The notes below the pieces were generated by a model, which did no database searches, was not told the origin of the DNA, and worked only from the letters and a program-made list of their open reading frames with translations. Positions 1-40,154 of a DNA stretch of 40,154 bases are shown here, piece by piece. How positions within the stretch are numbered: position 1 is the stretch's first letter; the number at the start of each line of letters is the position of its first letter. Source of the stretch: a virus; IMG/VR virus record IMGVR_UViG_3300007363_000007, positions 1-40,154 of that record. One strand, written 5' to 3'. The position numbers were made by a program, and so were the translations under genes.

Positions 1-110
1 ACGCTCCTGGTTCTTGTGAACCTGAACCGGAGCTCCATGAACTCGGTCGCCCGCTTCCATAATTCCCCTGGATTTTAGGTACGCCGCTTTCTCCCCCTTC
101 GAAAAAAAAA
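1..110. repeat. 110-bp direct terminal repeat, left copy
   Basis: Bases 1-110 are identical to 40045-40154, including the run of nine A at the end. The repeat lies inside a coding frame that stays open across the join, so it is best read as assembly overlap of a circular or circularly permuted genome rather than as a packaged terminal repeat. The unique circle is 40,044 bp. Confidence 0.95.
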
Positions 111-5205: not shown

Positions 5206-5391
5206 ATGGGAAAAATTGAATACACAAACAAAGAACTCGGAATGATGTCGGCAGTCACAATCACGCCAGAAGGTCGCAACATCGTCACTTTGATTGATAC
5301 CGATGCAAACGAAACACTTGGTATCGTCAAAATATTTCCTAGCACGCCGGACGCGATGGAATATGCCAAGAAGCTTGTGCAGGTGGCCTAA
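5206..5391 (+). CDS. Early protein 1, unknown
   Basis: 61 aa, first gene of the rightward early operon, with a GGGGAGG ribosome site 8 nt before the ATG. The sequence is mixed beta/alpha (segments like ITPEGRNIVTLIDTD) and soluble-looking, with no Cys, signal or TM segment. Two bases separate its stop from the next ATG. As the promoter-proximal early gene it is a candidate host-takeover protein, but this is inference; no family was recognised. Confidence 0.75.
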   Translation: MGKIEYTNKELGMMSAVTITPEGRNIVTLIDTDANETLGIVKIFPSTPDAMEYAKKLVQVA

Positions 5392-5393
5392 TC

Positions 5394-5477
5394 ATGGAAC
5401 TTCTACAAGCTTTCTTATCCTTTTGGGGCGGTGCGGTTGTGGCTACGTTGTTGGGTTTAGCGGTGGTGAAATCATGA
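5394..5477 (+). CDS. Single-TM micropeptide
   Basis: 27 aa, nearly all one hydrophobic helix (FWGGAVVATLLGLAVV) ending in KS. It follows early gene 1 after two bases, and its stop overlaps the next start in GGTGAAATCATGA, a cassette repeated twice more downstream. It is probably an inner-membrane peptide; its function is unknown. Confidence 0.55.
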   Translation: MELLQAFLSFWGGAVVATLLGLAVVKS

Positions 5478-5605
5478 AACTTGAACTGGTTGAAGGATAC
5501 AAACAAAGCACGAATGAGGTCATTTTAAGCGTTTGCCTAACTCGCCGGGATGAAGTTGTTGAGTGCTTAGCCGTGATGGTTTCGAGTGTTGTGGTGAAAT
5601 CATGA
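5474..5605 (+). CDS. Small early protein
   Basis: 43 aa, start MKLELVEGYKQS, coupled by ATGA overlap at both ends through the repeated GGTGAAATCATGA cassette. The C-terminal stretch CLAVMVSSVVVKS is hydrophobic and its VVKS ending matches that of the preceding peptide. Unknown function; its tight packing in the operon supports its being real. Confidence 0.55.
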   Translation: MKLELVEGYKQSTNEVILSVCLTRRDEVVECLAVMVSSVVVKS

Positions 5606-5745
5606 AAACTTCAACCGATGAAAAAATCCTTGCTTTTATTCAAAGTGTTGCCCGTTCGGCTTGCTTGGATCAAATATGGGGCGACAAATGCCGTTGCTTT
5701 TCATGCGAGGCAAATGCGCTTCTCAATGAAATGGTGAAATCATGA
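5602..5745 (+). CDS. Cys-containing small early protein
   Basis: 47 aa with the cluster CRCFSC (residues 30-35) plus Cys21, which could bind zinc. The start ATG overlaps the previous stop, and the end again carries GGTGAAATCATGA. No family was recognised. Confidence 0.6.
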   Translation: MKTSTDEKILAFIQSVARSACLDQIWGDKCRCFSCEANALLNEMVKS

Positions 5746-5942
5746 GCCAAATATTGATTGGATGCCGCGAAGCTGACAGAAAATCTACGCCATCACTTAT
5801 GGGATATGTTCATGTTTGGGAAGGTGACACTTTCCTTTACGAACTTAAAACCAATATCAAAATACTAAATAAGCGTGACGCTATCACCGATGCTGAGAAC
5901 CTACGAAAAGAGCTTATCGAACAAAATGGGGGCAAGATATGA
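5742..5942 (+). CDS. Small early protein, unknown
   Basis: 66 aa, start MSQILIGCREADRK, ATGA overlap with the gene before and after. The N-terminal half looks beta-rich (MGYVHVWEGDTFLYEL) and the C-terminal half helical and charged. No signal, TM or known motif is seen. Confidence 0.7.
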   Translation: MSQILIGCREADRKSTPSLMGYVHVWEGDTFLYELKTNIKILNKRDAITDAENLRKELIEQNGGKI

Positions 5943-6148
5943 GCCCCCGTTTCAAGATTGGCCAGAAATACATACCCGTTGGCGATAAAAACAAAGCGGT
6001 GCACACGGTTGTTGATATCCACACCACGACAAACGCCGCCGGTGAGGTTGTCAAACTCCGCTACGTTTCAACGCATGAGTTTTGCGGGCAGATTGTCTAT
6101 GACTATGACGTAAACGATACCCGTATTGCAAGGGGGGCGATATCATGA
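5939..6148 (+). CDS. Small early protein, beta-rich
   Basis: 69 aa. The strand-rich sequence (KIGQKYIPVGDKNKAVHTVV and CGQIVYDYDV) resembles a small SH3-like or beta-barrel domain, but no specific family was recognised. It is coupled by ATGA overlaps to both neighbours. Confidence 0.7.
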   Translation: MSPRFKIGQKYIPVGDKNKAVHTVVDIHTTTNAAGEVVKLRYVSTHEFCGQIVYDYDVNDTRIARGAIS

Positions 6149-6261
6149 ACTTACAACCAATCGACGGTGCCTACTTCACCACAGCTTATTTCATGGTTTC
6201 AAGTGTTGTGGCTTTGATTGTTGCCTTTGTCGGGGCGTATGTGAGCGAGTTTAGACCATGA
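6145..6261 (+). CDS. Single-TM micropeptide
   Basis: 38 aa with a central hydrophobic helix (FMVSSVVALIVAFVGAYV), short polar ends, and ATGA overlaps with the genes before and after. It is likely an inner-membrane peptide of unknown role. Confidence 0.55.
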   Translation: MNLQPIDGAYFTTAYFMVSSVVALIVAFVGAYVSEFRP

Positions 6262-6323
6262 ACCCGCACGACTTCGAACACAACCAACAATTACAAGAAT
6301 TCATCGAAAAACTAGAGAAATAA
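6258..6323 (+). CDS. Possible 21-aa peptide
   Basis: Frame MNPHDFEHNQQLQEFIEKLE plus Lys; charged, probably helical. Its ATG overlaps the preceding stop as in the rest of the operon, but it is so short that only the context supports it. Confidence 0.4.
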   Translation: MNPHDFEHNQQLQEFIEKLEK

Positions 6324-6333
6324 AGGGGGATAT

Positions 6334-6417
6334 ATGAGTGATAATTTTTTACAAATAATTTGGATTCTAACCGGTTGGGAAGTTGGACAATTAATCTACA
6401 GAGTTTTCTTTAAATAA
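6334..6417 (+). CDS. Short amphipathic membrane peptide
   Basis: 27 aa, aromatic and hydrophobic (NFLQIIWILTGWEVGQLIYR), preceded by the ribosome site AAAGGGGGATAT. The same AAATAAAGGGGGATAT leader recurs before the next gene. Function unknown. Confidence 0.5.
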   Translation: MSDNFLQIIWILTGWEVGQLIYRVFFK

Positions 6418-6428
6418 AGGGGGATATT

Positions 6429-6659
6429 ATGGCAACTGTCAAAGTCAAAGATCAAATCTGCCACGTTGAAACGCTTTCGGAGTGGATAGAGGGACGGATT
6501 AAACAAATAGAATCAGCCGGCCCGCTTGCTTTTATGCCAATTGATATGGGTGCTCTTCAGGGCCGTTTGGCTGAGCTACACATAATCCACCAGAAAATAA
6601 ATGACGGTCGTATCCAAGAAATTGGAAAGGTTAAGTTTAAAAAGGTGAAAAAGTCATGA
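6429..6659 (+). CDS. Early protein, helical, unknown
   Basis: 76 aa, start MATVKVKDQICHVETLSEWI, with a strong AAAGGGGG ribosome site. Mostly helical with a Lys-rich tail (KFKKVKKS). The end carries a variant of the stop-start cassette (GGTGAAAAAGTCATGA) that couples it to the next gene. No recognised family. Confidence 0.75.
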   Translation: MATVKVKDQICHVETLSEWIEGRIKQIESAGPLAFMPIDMGALQGRLAELHIIHQKINDGRIQEIGKVKFKKVKKS

Positions 6660-15354: not shown

Positions 15355-15564
15355 TCACTGAACTCTAGCTATAAACTTTTCAATCAATGCATCTTTGATC
15401 TTAAGCTCTTGTTTTATATCTCTTGTTTTTCGATCAACTTCGTATTCAATTTGATTCATTATCATTTGACTTTTGTTTTGAGATAGATGGCTTAGAAGTT
15501 CGAGCAGTTCTTTTCTTGTGCAGTCGTCTTGATCTTTACCTTTCCATTGAAACCTGTATTCCAC
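15355..15564 (-). CDS. Helical small protein, first of the leftward early run
   Basis: 69 aa, GTG start at 15564 with AAAGGAG 8 nt upstream. Charged and helical (MNQIEYEVDRKTRDIKQELK). No promoter was found directly upstream, where the putative large RNA lies. Confidence 0.65.
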   Translation of the reverse strand: MEYRFQWKGKDQDDCTRKELLELLSHLSQNKSQMIMNQIEYEVDRKTRDIKQELKIKDALIEKFIARVQ

Positions 15565-15603
15565 TTACTTCTCCTTTCGTTACCTTGTTTACTGAGATAT
15601 AAC

Positions 15604-16030
15604 TTCTCTCTGGGCAGTCTCTTAGCCCGTTTGCTTCTTTTAAACCTATGACGCCCGATAAGACAACTTTACTCACCCTAGAAAGTGCTGGTCCCGGTAG
15701 CTTTCTACCAGTAGGTTGTGTTTATCTCACTGATTCAAGCTTTGACTTGCTACGGCTATCACCTTGTAATCTTCCTGCCCGTCGAGAATGTCTAGTAGGT
15801 GAACTCATAAGCCTCATCGGTTCTTAAGCGTTGTTTTGTAAGACTTTCTGGCACAAAGAAAGAGCGGTTGAATCAAAGCCAGTGAAATTCCTCTCTGGCC
15901 TGACGCCAATCCACCTAGACATGGTGGCGGCGCAGGCAGTACGGCGTTCTAGAATCCCGTAGCAGAGAGTAAATTGTTCCCCAAGATAGAGGTGCGTCAT
16001 TTCCTGGAATATGACGTGTCTTCTTCTTTT
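15604..16030 (+). ncRNA. Candidate large ornate structured RNA
   Basis: No convincing gene occupies this stretch, but it holds nested and tertiary pairings. (1) Three-way junction closed by CTCTCTG (15891-15897) with CAGAGAG (15963-15969). It encloses a hairpin at 15898-15937 (5+4+5 bp) and a second hairpin, TACGG (15940-15944) with CCGTA (15957-15961). (2) The 7-base loop 15916-15922 (TAGACAT) is fully complementary to 15788-15794. (3) 15657-15667 pairs with 15715-15726 over 11 bp. (4) GGCT and TCACCT (15754-15764) pair with AGGTGA and AGCC (15797-15813). (5) 15845-15852 pairs with 15878-15887. (6) ATGACGC (15648-15654) can close the whole with GCGTCAT (15994-16000). G-U pairs in two helices favour the plus strand. 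No clear promoter was found. It resembles large phage RNAs such as GOLLD or ROOL in style, but class membership cannot be judged by eye. Confidence 0.5.
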
Positions 16031-16064
16031 TAATATCCGACATATCTAAGGGATTTAAATTGAT

Positions 16065-16103
16065 AACAAAAAACCCCCGGCCTAAATTAATAGACCGAGG
16101 GTT
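16065..16103 (-). terminator. Intrinsic terminator of the late/moron transcript
   Basis: Stem 16103-16092 with 16083-16072, twelve pairs on the minus strand (two G-U), loop of 8, then a T-run. On the plus strand the two G-U positions become mismatches, so it is mainly a leftward terminator. Confidence 0.8.
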
Positions 16104-16125
16104 TTCGCTTGAAATGTTCATACGC

Positions 16126-16184
16126 ACACCCGCCAGGACGAAGCGCACGAACGATAAGATGGTTTTTGTCACCCTGGCGAGTGT
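16126..16184 (-). other. Long 3'-UTR hairpin
   Basis: ACACTCGCCAGG (from 16184) pairs with CCTGGCGGGTGT (to 16126), 12 bp with one G-U on the minus strand, and a loop of about 35 nt. It lies between the collagen-like lipoprotein gene and the terminator, without a T-run. Role unknown: mRNA stabiliser or protein-binding site. The rest of 16107-16234 shows no gene. Confidence 0.5.
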
Positions 16185-16234
16185 ATTCATATGATTATTT
16201 TAATTCCTGTTGTTTATTTTTGCAACACTTTTTT

Positions 16235-16600
16235 TTAAATCATCAAAACAACGATGTAGCCTGTTGCCGATGCTTTTGCTGCGTTGTAGAACTGAATCGT
16301 TCCTGCCGTCGGGTTGAGCAAGTAAAACGTATTCGTTGCATAACCCGGAAGATAATACGGTGATTCGATCAAAGTCGTACCATTATTTAAGAAAACACTG
16401 ACGTTTGATGCAAGCTTAATTCGTGCGTCTGTGATTGTGAACAGGTCCGAGGTAACGGGACCAGATAAGACAACTTCTGTCGGACCGTTAAGACCGGGTG
16501 TGCCTTGTGGGCCCTGGGCTCCATTCGAACCATTGCTTCCCGCTGGTCCTTTGCAACCAACTGCTACCAACATTACTGTGACTAGAATTAACTTTTTCAT
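16235..16600 (-). CDS. Collagen-like lipoprotein (moron)
   Basis: 121 aa. Lipoprotein signal MKKLILVTVMLVAVGC (Cys16), then eight Gly-X-Y triplets (GPAGSNGSNGAQGPQGTPGL...) forming a short collagen-like region, and a beta-rich C-terminal domain of about 75 aa. It has its own promoter and is followed by a hairpin and terminator, so it can be expressed apart from the late genes. Surface display on the host is likely; receptor masking or superinfection exclusion is a possible role. Alternatively it is a virion fibril. Confidence 0.8.
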   Translation of the reverse strand: MKKLILVTVMLVAVGCKGPAGSNGSNGAQGPQGTPGLNGPTEVVLSGPVTSDLFTITDARIKLASNVSVFLNNGTTLIESPYYLPGYATNTFYLLNPTAGTIQFYNAAKASATGYIVVLMI

Positions 16601-16670: not shown

Positions 16671-16778
16671 TTAGTGTACGTGAACATCCCAGCCTTTTCG
16701 TTCAACCCAATCCAAGCAATCAGCGCAGTAGTAGGTGTCTGGTAAAGCTTCTTTTTGTTCGCACTTAATGCACTTCAA
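16671..16778 (-). CDS. Zinc-ribbon micropeptide
   Basis: 35 aa with a clean double CxxC: LKCIKCEQKEALPDTYYCAD then CLDWVERKGW. The only plausible start is TTG at 16778, overlapping the upstream TGA (TTGA). It ends the lysis-side operon just before the moron promoter. Confidence 0.5.
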   Translation of the reverse strand: MKCIKCEQKEALPDTYYCADCLDWVERKGWDVHVH

Positions 16779-16960
16779 CGTGAGATTATCCAGGCGTGAT
16801 CGGGGTCTAAAACTCGCCAGGAAGCAACGTCAACAGAACCGTTGTTCCCAGCGCAGATAAGGGTGTAGATGTCTTTTACTATCCACCCTTCGGGAGTTTT
16901 CATTCGGTAGGTGTTCTCGCTGAGATGTTCCCACTTACCAGAGTACTTCTCATCGGCCAT
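16775..16960 (-). CDS. Small late protein, unknown
   Basis: 61 aa, start MADEKYSGKWEHLSENTYRM, Trp/aromatic-rich and beta-like. TAATG overlap with the gene upstream. Function not recognised. Confidence 0.65.
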   Translation of the reverse strand: MADEKYSGKWEHLSENTYRMKTPEGWIVKDIYTLICAGNNGSVDVASWRVLDPDHAWIISR

Positions 16961-35581: not shown

Positions 35582-36426
35582 TAATCCCCCAGGACCGTCA
35601 AAGCATTGTACTTCGTGAACTTGCCGTATCTCTTATCTGATTCTTTATCCACAGACTTACGAAAGTTATCCACAAACTCCTCTGTTATCACTTGGGGATG
35701 GCTTAGATGGCCGATGTTGAAGGTTGTGTCCATGAATACCCGTCCACCGGCTTTCTTGACTTTGTAGCAAAATAGGATGTCTTCGCCTGTTCCCTCTGAG
35801 CACATGAAGTAGGGAGGGTTAATCTTCTTTAGGATATCGACTTTGACCAAGGCGGCACCAAATCCACAAGCATCTACCTCGACCAACATGTTCTTGGGAT
35901 AGTTCTGGATTGGAGTATTGATGAAATAGTCGCTTTTATTAACTGCGTCGTAGCCTTCGACAGATTGATACAAGACGGGGTTGTAGGGAGCGTTACGGGT
36001 GAAGGCCAAGGGACAAACCACGTCTGCTACCTTGTGGTGACGATAGAGCCTTAAGAACATATCGTTGGGACAAATCATGTCGTCGTCCACAAAGAAAATG
36101 TAGTCCATGTTGTTTTCAAGGGCTCGTTTTGCTGCCTCTTCTCTTGCAGCTGGGGTAAAGATACGACCGATGTTGATAAACCAAAATTCGAAGATCTCGT
36201 CGTCCATCTTTTTGATGAACATGGAGTCTTTAAGGAACTCGTTTAGGATTGATTCTTTTTGTTGGGGGGCTTGTCTTTCGAGGATATCTGCAAATTTGAA
36301 GAAGTCTTCACGTTGGGTTTGGAAACAGCCTATGTTTAAAAAGTTTTCGAGTCGGTTTCCGTAGGCTTCCACTTGGGTGTATCCCATGTTGGGTATGGCG
36401 ATTAAGACTTTGACTGATTTTTTCAT
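35581..36426 (-). CDS. Glycosyltransferase, GT-A type
   Basis: 281 aa. Starts VKVLIAIPNMGYTQ, with the metal motif YIFFVDDDM (DDD at 114-116) and later TGEDILFCYKVKKAGGRVF, a GT2/GT-A acceptor-side pattern. It works with the neighbouring fusion protein; the target is unknown. ATGA overlap with the upstream gene. Confidence 0.8.
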   Translation of the reverse strand: MKKSVKVLIAIPNMGYTQVEAYGNRLENFLNIGCFQTQREDFFKFADILERQAPQQKESILNEFLKDSMFIKKMDDEIFEFWFINIGRIFTPAAREEAAKRALENNMDYIFFVDDDMICPNDMFLRLYRHHKVADVVCPLAFTRNAPYNPVLYQSVEGYDAVNKSDYFINTPIQNYPKNMLVEVDACGFGAALVKVDILKKINPPYFMCSEGTGEDILFCYKVKKAGGRVFMDTTFNIGHLSHPQVITEEFVDNFRKSVDKESDKRYGKFTKYNALTVLGD

Positions 36427-36665
36427 TCAATAATATTGAACCAAATTAAAAACAACTCCCAAAGACTAATTTTTACAGGTTGAGACATTCTGTGGCCCAA
36501 GTGCCGGGACAGAGACGAGTGTGAGTTTGTCACAATCGCTCCGTCCACGGCACATCGGTCCACTTCTAAAAGATCCCTGAAAGGACGCCATATATATCGG
36601 GTCGGGACAAATATCCCTGCGACCTTAATATACGCTTGAAGGCGCTCTTCCAAGGAGTAAGTCAT
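36423..36665 (-). CDS. Small late protein, unknown
   Basis: 80 aa, start MTYSLEERLQAYIKVAGIFV, aromatic-rich, ending in a hydrophobic WELFLIWFNIIE. TAATG overlap with the upstream decoration-like gene. No family recognised. Confidence 0.65.
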   Translation of the reverse strand: MTYSLEERLQAYIKVAGIFVPTRYIWRPFRDLLEVDRCAVDGAIVTNSHSSLSRHLGHRMSQPVKISLWELFLIWFNIIE

Positions 36666-37111
36666 TACATTCCGCTACGAACGAATCCAACGGTCCAGGC
36701 TTGCGCCGAGATACCAGTGGTTGCGCCAGCAACGATATACTTGTTGAGAACCGTGGTCATGGCCGCGTCCGTCAAGGACGAGAACCACGTACCAGCAACA
36801 GCGCCGGGTTTCAACGTATCGCCAGCGGTAATGGTGATGCTCGTTCCAACGTTCGAAAGAACGATAGAAGCGGCATAACCATAGACCGTAGCTTTACCGA
36901 AACCATTGATCGGCACGTCTTTTGCAACGATTCCGTAGAAGTCTTTGATCGCCGCCGCAGTCGATTGAACAGCAGAGATGCCGTCAAACGAGGCCGCAGA
37001 TTGGACCAAACGAATTCCGTATCCGGTGGTGATAGAACCTCCGCCGTCAACGTTTTTAAATGCTACCCGAATCGATTCCGGGTCGTTACGATTAATTGCT
37101 TGAATGTCCAT
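36665..37111 (-). CDS. Putative head decoration protein
   Basis: 148 aa. Ala/Gly/Thr-rich beta sequence (GSITTGYGIRLVQSAASFDG; VYGYAASIVLSNVGTSITIT) like capsid decoration or minor head proteins, shortly after the major capsid gene. AAGGAG site. Function inferred from position and composition. Confidence 0.6.
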   Translation of the reverse strand: MDIQAINRNDPESIRVAFKNVDGGGSITTGYGIRLVQSAASFDGISAVQSTAAAIKDFYGIVAKDVPINGFGKATVYGYAASIVLSNVGTSITITAGDTLKPGAVAGTWFSSLTDAAMTTVLNKYIVAGATTGISAQAWTVGFVRSGM

Positions 37112-39944: not shown

Positions 39945-40154
39945 TCTCTCTGCAAATCTTCAGATATTCTTGTCGTCGGTTGTCTCTTCCCATCTCTCGG
40001 ACTTTCTTCAAAGCCATCTGGACTTCGTGTCTCGTATCTACTTTACGCTCCTGGTTCTTGTGAACCTGAACCGGAGCTCCATGAACTCGGTCGCCCGCTT
40101 CCATAATTCCCCTGGATTTTAGGTACGCCGCTTTCTCCCCCTTCGAAAAAAAAA
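39925..40154 (-). CDS. Zinc-finger protein, C-terminal part (start at 306 on the circle)
   Basis: The frame enters at 40154 and runs to TAA at 39925; 40044-39925 completes the gene that starts at 306 and crosses base 1. Bases 40045-40154 repeat codons of the first part. C-terminal residues (MALKKVREMGRDNRRQEYLK) are basic and helical. The in-frame continuation is the best evidence for circular closure. Confidence 0.8.
   Translation of the reverse strand, partial: FFSKGEKAAYLKSRGIMEAGDRVHGAPVQVHKNQERKVDTRHEVQMALKKVREMGRDNRRQEYLKICRENGRYAR
40045..40154. repeat. 110-bp direct terminal repeat, right copy
   Basis: Identical to bases 1-110; see that entry. Remove one copy before circularising. 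Confidence 0.95.

Follow-up and report, generated by a model that had tools for sequence, protein, structure and literature searches.

Known systems and genomic setting

GOLLD and ROOL are large RNAs carried by phages and prophages, and both often occur close to tRNA islands (PMC12286853). Many members of the GOLLD family are longer than 800 nt, with a 3' domain that is conserved, while the numerous conserved stems (P1-P19) and the pseudoknots of ROOL are backed by covariation (PMC12286853). The put RNA of HK022, a cis antitermination RNA of early transcripts, lies in the early transcript itself (PMC9378689). As used in the method of PMC8723152, structured RNAs are enriched in long GC-rich intergenic regions.

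The DNA analysed here, referred to as the window, spans the 40,154 nt of one IMG/VR virus record. Nearly all of its genes read leftward. In this direction, the capsid, structural and lysis genes are followed by a lipoprotein gene, the flagged gap and an early operon, which runs from the GTG at 15564 to RecT, NinG and a replication-initiation protein, with terminase and portal last. The gap, counted from the terminator to this GTG, measures about 430-500 nt and is bordered by the following features:

16235-16600, minus strand: last gene before the junction of the late and early modules, encoding a small lipoprotein-like protein with collagen-like GPxG repeats
16119-16194, minus strand: hairpin of about 22 bp enclosing a large loop, immediately following the last late gene, seen by fold energy
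16063-16105, minus strand: terminator-like hairpin with arms 16070-16084 and 16091-16105, a T-run on the minus strand and a weaker one on the plus strand
15355-15564, minus strand: first gene of the early leftward operon, with a GTG start at 15564 behind AAAGGAG; no family assigned

A direct repeat of about 50 nt at the ends of the window (31-80 and near 40075-40124) suggests that the genome is circular or terminally redundant. In assembly 3300025635, two IMG/VR contigs match the window with 100% identity over the compared stretches; they are the same virus. At 5294-6659, a cluster of small ORFs reads rightward, against the direction of the rest of the genome, and their starts and stops overlap; one of these (ORF 5939-6148) matches PHROG 28041, of unknown function.

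The initial annotation had described 15604-16030 as a large ornate structured RNA, possibly of the GOLLD or ROOL kind. Rfam 15 yielded zero matches in the window at the gathering thresholds. At E<=10 with permissive filters nothing was found inside 15604-15970, and the weak matches centre on the adjoining terminator hairpin 16063-16105, which aligns partially and below threshold to the NsiR1/His_leader terminator hairpins. ARAGORN detected 0 tRNAs and no tmRNA in the window. Based on the lack of Rfam and ARAGORN matches, GOLLD, ROOL, OLE, HEARO, tmRNA and group I and II introns were rejected as candidates, and the proposed GOLLD- or ROOL-like identity was not borne out once the Rfam check was run. 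A divergent GOLLD or ROOL RNA, or one from some other large family already known, would fit the phage location, but that is the one point in its favour: there is no Rfam match at any useful level, tRNAs are absent and the region is too short for GOLLD. This reading is already largely refuted and its probability is next to negligible.

Coding potential of the gap

The gap is non-coding, with no reading frame supported. Codon-usage scores in all six frames are below the values typical of the phage's genes. The longest frames are the plus-strand ORF 15648-15827 (59 aa, MTPDKTTLL...) and the minus-strand ORF 15915-16190 (91 aa), and neither has a Pfam or PHROG family or a tblastn relative in 50,697 phage records. 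The absence of a convincing reading frame in 15604-16030, as originally noted, is thus upheld by codon usage, Pfam, PHROGs and tblastn. Unrecognised small protein genes, such as these two ORFs, are very improbable. The frames are open, but both score under the in-frame mean of known genes, no ribosome-binding site is seen, neither family nor tblastn relative was found, and the minus-strand ORF passes through the terminator hairpin.

Folding of the whole region

The minimum free energy of 15604-16030 is -127.4 kcal/mol on the plus strand and -126.0 kcal/mol on the minus strand (z -2.0). This value is equalled by 11 of 300 dinucleotide shuffles, which corresponds to the 4-5% level and is similar on both strands. 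The plus strand has 14 helices of at least 5 bp and the minus strand 11, where the shuffles average 9.3 and 8.7, respectively; neither the number of pairs with p>0.9 nor the positional entropy is unusual. In a tiled 150-nt scan (533 windows per strand), the best window of the region ranks 10th on the plus and 9th on the minus strand, with the interiors of ordinary genes ranking alongside it. A count of 'six helices in 430 nt' therefore carries no weight on its own. The helices of the initial annotation can be drawn, but most of its description is what random sequence gives (z about -2, shuffles with about 9 helices), and what the flagged region mainly shows is that helix counts in 430 nt are weak evidence. 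As a whole, the region folds marginally better than shuffled DNA. A 'large ornate' RNA is not supported, given the marginal global fold, the missing Rfam match and a length of 427 nt that is short beside GOLLD.

The GC content of 15604-16030 is 0.47, compared to 0.39-0.45 in the other gaps, and its flanks are AT-rich (0.33 and 0.27).

Local elements in and beside the gap

Within the region, a local structured element stands out, consisting of a three-way junction and a neighbouring hairpin:

15885-15975, both strands: compact three-way junction, seen by fold energy against shuffles
15983-16033 (stem 15983-16028), plus strand: bulged hairpin of 20 pairs followed by the T-rich tail TCTTCTTCTTTTT; energy -15.3 (z -3.35) on the plus and -8.2 (z -1.6) on the minus strand

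The junction has a GC content of 0.54 and consists of P1 (CTCTCTG/CAGAGAG, 15891-15897 / 15963-15969), P2 (GCCTG.CGCC..CCACC plus partners, 15898-15937) and P3, the 22-bp dyad TACGGCGTTCTAGAATCCCGTA (15940-15961). The closing stem abuts the first hairpin (CTCTCTG|GCCTG) with zero spare bases, as the initial annotation had stated, and this arrangement can indeed be drawn on the plus strand at 15891-15969. The fold of 15885-15975 reaches -39.9 kcal/mol (z -5.2) on the plus and -38.7 kcal/mol (z -3.7) on the minus strand; as single-stranded DNA the junction folds too (z -4.6). When the most stable 91-nt window was picked from the entire region, the observed value was reached by 0/160 shuffles (+) and 1/160 (-); this count is corrected for the choice of window, as each shuffle covered the whole region and contributed its best window, and is somewhat optimistic, as the 91-nt length and the boundaries were picked after viewing the fold. 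Genome-wide, 15885-15975 is the second most stable of 2004 91-nt windows on the plus strand. The most stable one, 36481-36571, lies inside a protein-coding gene, and therefore stability alone is no proof of a non-coding RNA. The local element of junction and hairpin is probably real.

If read on the plus strand, hairpin 15983-16028 with TCTTCTTCTTTTT is terminator-like. It was missed by the terminator scan, probably because its stem is bulged. Within it lies the imperfect dyad GTCAT.TTCC.GGAA.ATGAC (15996-16015). The remaining features of the gap are:

15612-15656, either strand: weak hairpin GGGC...GCCC; energy -9.6 on the plus and -8.9 on the minus strand
15655-15728 (helix 15657-15726), plus strand: long hairpin arm, 28 pairs on this strand; energy -22.8 (z -3.25, 3/300) on the plus and -17.7 (z -0.96) on the minus strand
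15724-15890, minus strand: long irregular arm formed on this strand only, competing with the plus-strand reading; energy -43.9 (z -2.04) on the minus and -35.6 (z +0.39) on the plus strand
15742-15770, plus strand: promoter-like TTGACT-17-TGTAAT (10/12, with no A as second base of the -10 hexamer), at chance level
15651-15687 and 16147-16183, minus strand: degenerate direct repeat D1 (26/37), matched or exceeded in 2/200 shuffles

The two copies of D1 are also alike in translation (LARVTKTILSFV vs LSRVSKVVLSGV). The window genome holds no third copy and the relatives hold none. As iterons or operators, D1 and the dyads are disfavoured by copy number: D1 occurs twice only and the dyad at 15996-16015 once.

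Much stronger structure than in the flagged region is formed beside it by hairpin 16119-16194 together with the terminator 16063-16105, which stands between the late genes and the flagged region. On the minus strand, 16060-16240 folds with -61.1 kcal/mol (z -6.6) and 16060-16200 reaches z -7.5 (0/300 shuffles). With TTGCAA-17-TAAAAT at 16225, these two hairpins may represent a small RNA gene, about 125 nt long, or act as an attenuator.

Homologues and relatives

No homologue of the element was found by blastn in phages (INPHARED) and plasmids (PLSDB), and DNA searches of phages, plasmids, the relatives' records and 399 genomes gave chance matches only, of about 11-23 nt. A search of IMG/VR with the degenerate repeat AGGGTGA...AA....TCTTATC returned 13 loci, all by chance save the window's own contig, and back-translated peptides of the frames recovered the own contig only in IMG/VR and GTDB, the GTDB genomes searched being a sample. 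The one relative from a genome bin is a contig binned as Gallionella, and the element was not found in 399 genomes of its order or 369 of its class. A single-sequence covariance model of 15880-16030 (R1, 49 pairs) matched only itself over 1.3 Mb of relatives and the 369 genomes.

The phage family itself is real: its terminases are related at 50-77% and its capsid proteins at 49-88%. None of the relatives reached through RecT, NinG, the early small proteins and terminase carries 15604-16030. Two relatives have the same late/early junction, where the element is absent from both. G014 (38,865 nt), with a capsid protein 88% identical to that of the window, has the same pre-junction gene (window 16775-16960 vs L130 14815-15003, E 3e-08), followed by about 220 nt with the promoter-like TTGACA-18-TATACT and then the early genes. 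L147, with a RecT of 54% and endolysin and RecT in synteny, shows leftward small ORFs and the promoter-like TTTACA-17-TATACT. Since the relatives differ at this junction, it is a variable module boundary and the element is dispensable for the family. Another relative, G005 (IMGVR_UViG_3300045391_002924; L023-L025), shares the structural module with the window but not the early one, where some genes, including an integrase-like ORF (35659-36756), read in the opposite direction.

These observations bear on the possibility that the gap is neutral or decayed filler, left over from genes that disappeared or were exchanged at a module boundary prone to recombination, with its cluster of stable hairpins due to luck. 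The boundary differs in every relative examined, there is no conservation, the global fold has a z of -2, and long stretches carry only 1-2 stops (minus frame 0 and the plus frame of the 59-aa ORF). However, the stability of the junction is at the <=1% level even after window choice, the GC content is not lowered as in the other gaps, and phage genomes are compact. Filler is considered rather unlikely.

Strand and promoters

The evidence on the strand is mixed. The four short elements form more pairs on the plus than on the minus strand (28 vs 22, 29 vs 27, 20 vs 16 and 15 vs 12), the T-tail of hairpin 15983-16028 is on the plus strand only, and the adjoining terminator 16063-16105 has T-runs on both sides. 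In favour of the minus strand, the arm 15724-15890 is formed there only, and the plus-strand purine content of the region (0.45) is like that of the leftward genes, against 0.54 in the rightward cluster 5294-6659, which weakens the plus-strand reading. The junction forms almost as well on the minus strand as on the plus strand.

Promoter scans of the segment revealed no good promoter on either strand; the best plus-strand candidate within 15480-16040 is TTGACT-17-TGTAAT. This bears on control at the DNA level, in which the inverted repeats TACGGCGTTCTAGAATCCCGTA and GTCATATTCCAGGAAATGAC would serve as operators or as replication-protein sites that surround an early promoter, with the RNA fold as a by-product. 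Such control would agree with the dyads at 15940-15961 and 15996-16015, with arms that fold as single-stranded DNA too, and with the promoter-like sequences of G014 and L147 at the equivalent place. On the other hand, the segment is without a good promoter and its GC content is high for a promoter region; ten dyads of equal quality occur elsewhere in the window, and GTCATATTCCAGGAAATGAC is without a second copy. DNA-level control is somewhat unlikely.

A recurrent hairpin inside a coding gene

The most stable window of the genome belongs to an 80-aa gene (36423-36665, z -6.7), with a hairpin at 36501-36553 on the minus strand. The capsid genes lie upstream of this gene, and a glycosyltransferase-like gene follows it. 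Differences between the window and L013 are distributed over the codon positions as 24/14/39, and the gene looks coding. The hairpin is its most conserved part (83% vs 59-68% outside). Among 15 homologous intervals, not counting that of the window, a comparable hairpin is predicted in about the same part of the gene in 11 (G003, G005, G014, G018, G019, G022, L012, L013, L054, L059 and L060), most of them with a TTGTGAC motif. The count follows the most stable 66-nt window, which is found elsewhere in G026, L065, L049 and L011, where a weaker hairpin at the homologous place may have gone unseen.

Covariation was scored in eight hand-registered relatives, using the arms only, with AAAA in place of spacer and loop; outside this count are the window, L013, G014 and L012, whose hairpins lie in shifted registers. 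The 16 pairs are 89.8% paired and 5 of the 16 changed on both sides. The covariation score is 0.384 vs 0.251 +/- 0.030 in shuffles (0/500) and collapses in slid registers; the register was picked by eye on predicted folds, a choice biased towards pairing. Rfam (E<=1) shows nothing at this hairpin, and an attenuating or mRNA-processing role is a guess. Judged by comparison among relatives, the hairpin is better supported than the flagged region, since recurrence and covariation are the kind of evidence that the latter lacks.

Interpretation and comparison with known RNAs

The gap is tentatively explained as a hypervariable stretch of control DNA that separates the late-gene terminator from the early operon and contains one small genuine structured element, the junction 15885-15975 and hairpin 15983-16028, which is most likely a transcribed regulatory RNA. 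This is plausible, if short of probable, and the transcription, the strand and the role are all inferred. Such an RNA would serve the phage's early/late switch. It could be a short plus-strand RNA running away from the early operon, ending at the T-tailed hairpin and acting antisense or in trans. Alternatively, it could be the minus-strand 5' leader of the early operon, where the junction would shield or expose the transcript. The plus-strand option is slightly favoured because the four short elements pair more on this strand and the T-tail is found there only.

A regulatory RNA is supported by the non-coding gap, a junction beyond chance, the high GC content and a strong terminator-like hairpin upstream on the minus strand. 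Against it are the marginal global fold, the absence of a homologue, an equally stable fold in a coding gene and the lack of a good promoter; relatives also manage without the element. DNA-level operators and neutral filler are together about as likely as a small regulatory RNA. A more ambitious version, in which 15604-16033 on the plus strand would be a discrete RNA of a new class confined to a poorly sampled phage group, controlling the early/late switch with a three-way-junction core and an intrinsic terminator, is decidedly unlikely. If transcribed, the small regulatory element, located at the early/late boundary and with compact, probeable helices, would add to the structured RNAs that phages encode and whose function is unknown.

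Compared to the systems described above, the flagged region resembles GOLLD in being structured, non-coding and phage-borne, but differs from it with its 427 nt, no tRNA and no covariance-model match. With ROOL, it shares a non-coding region borne by a phage or prophage, while the ROOL covariance model does not match it. Phage intergenic regulatory leaders and antisense RNAs are alike in their place between a terminator and an early operon and in their local hairpins; they differ in that no homologue, ligand or target is identified for the flagged element. The put RNA of HK022 differs as well, as the flagged region is without a recognisable promoter, having only the weak TTGCAA-17-TAAAAT at 16225. 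It is nevertheless a candidate for a system that works alike, with hairpins near the start of early transcription and near a terminator.
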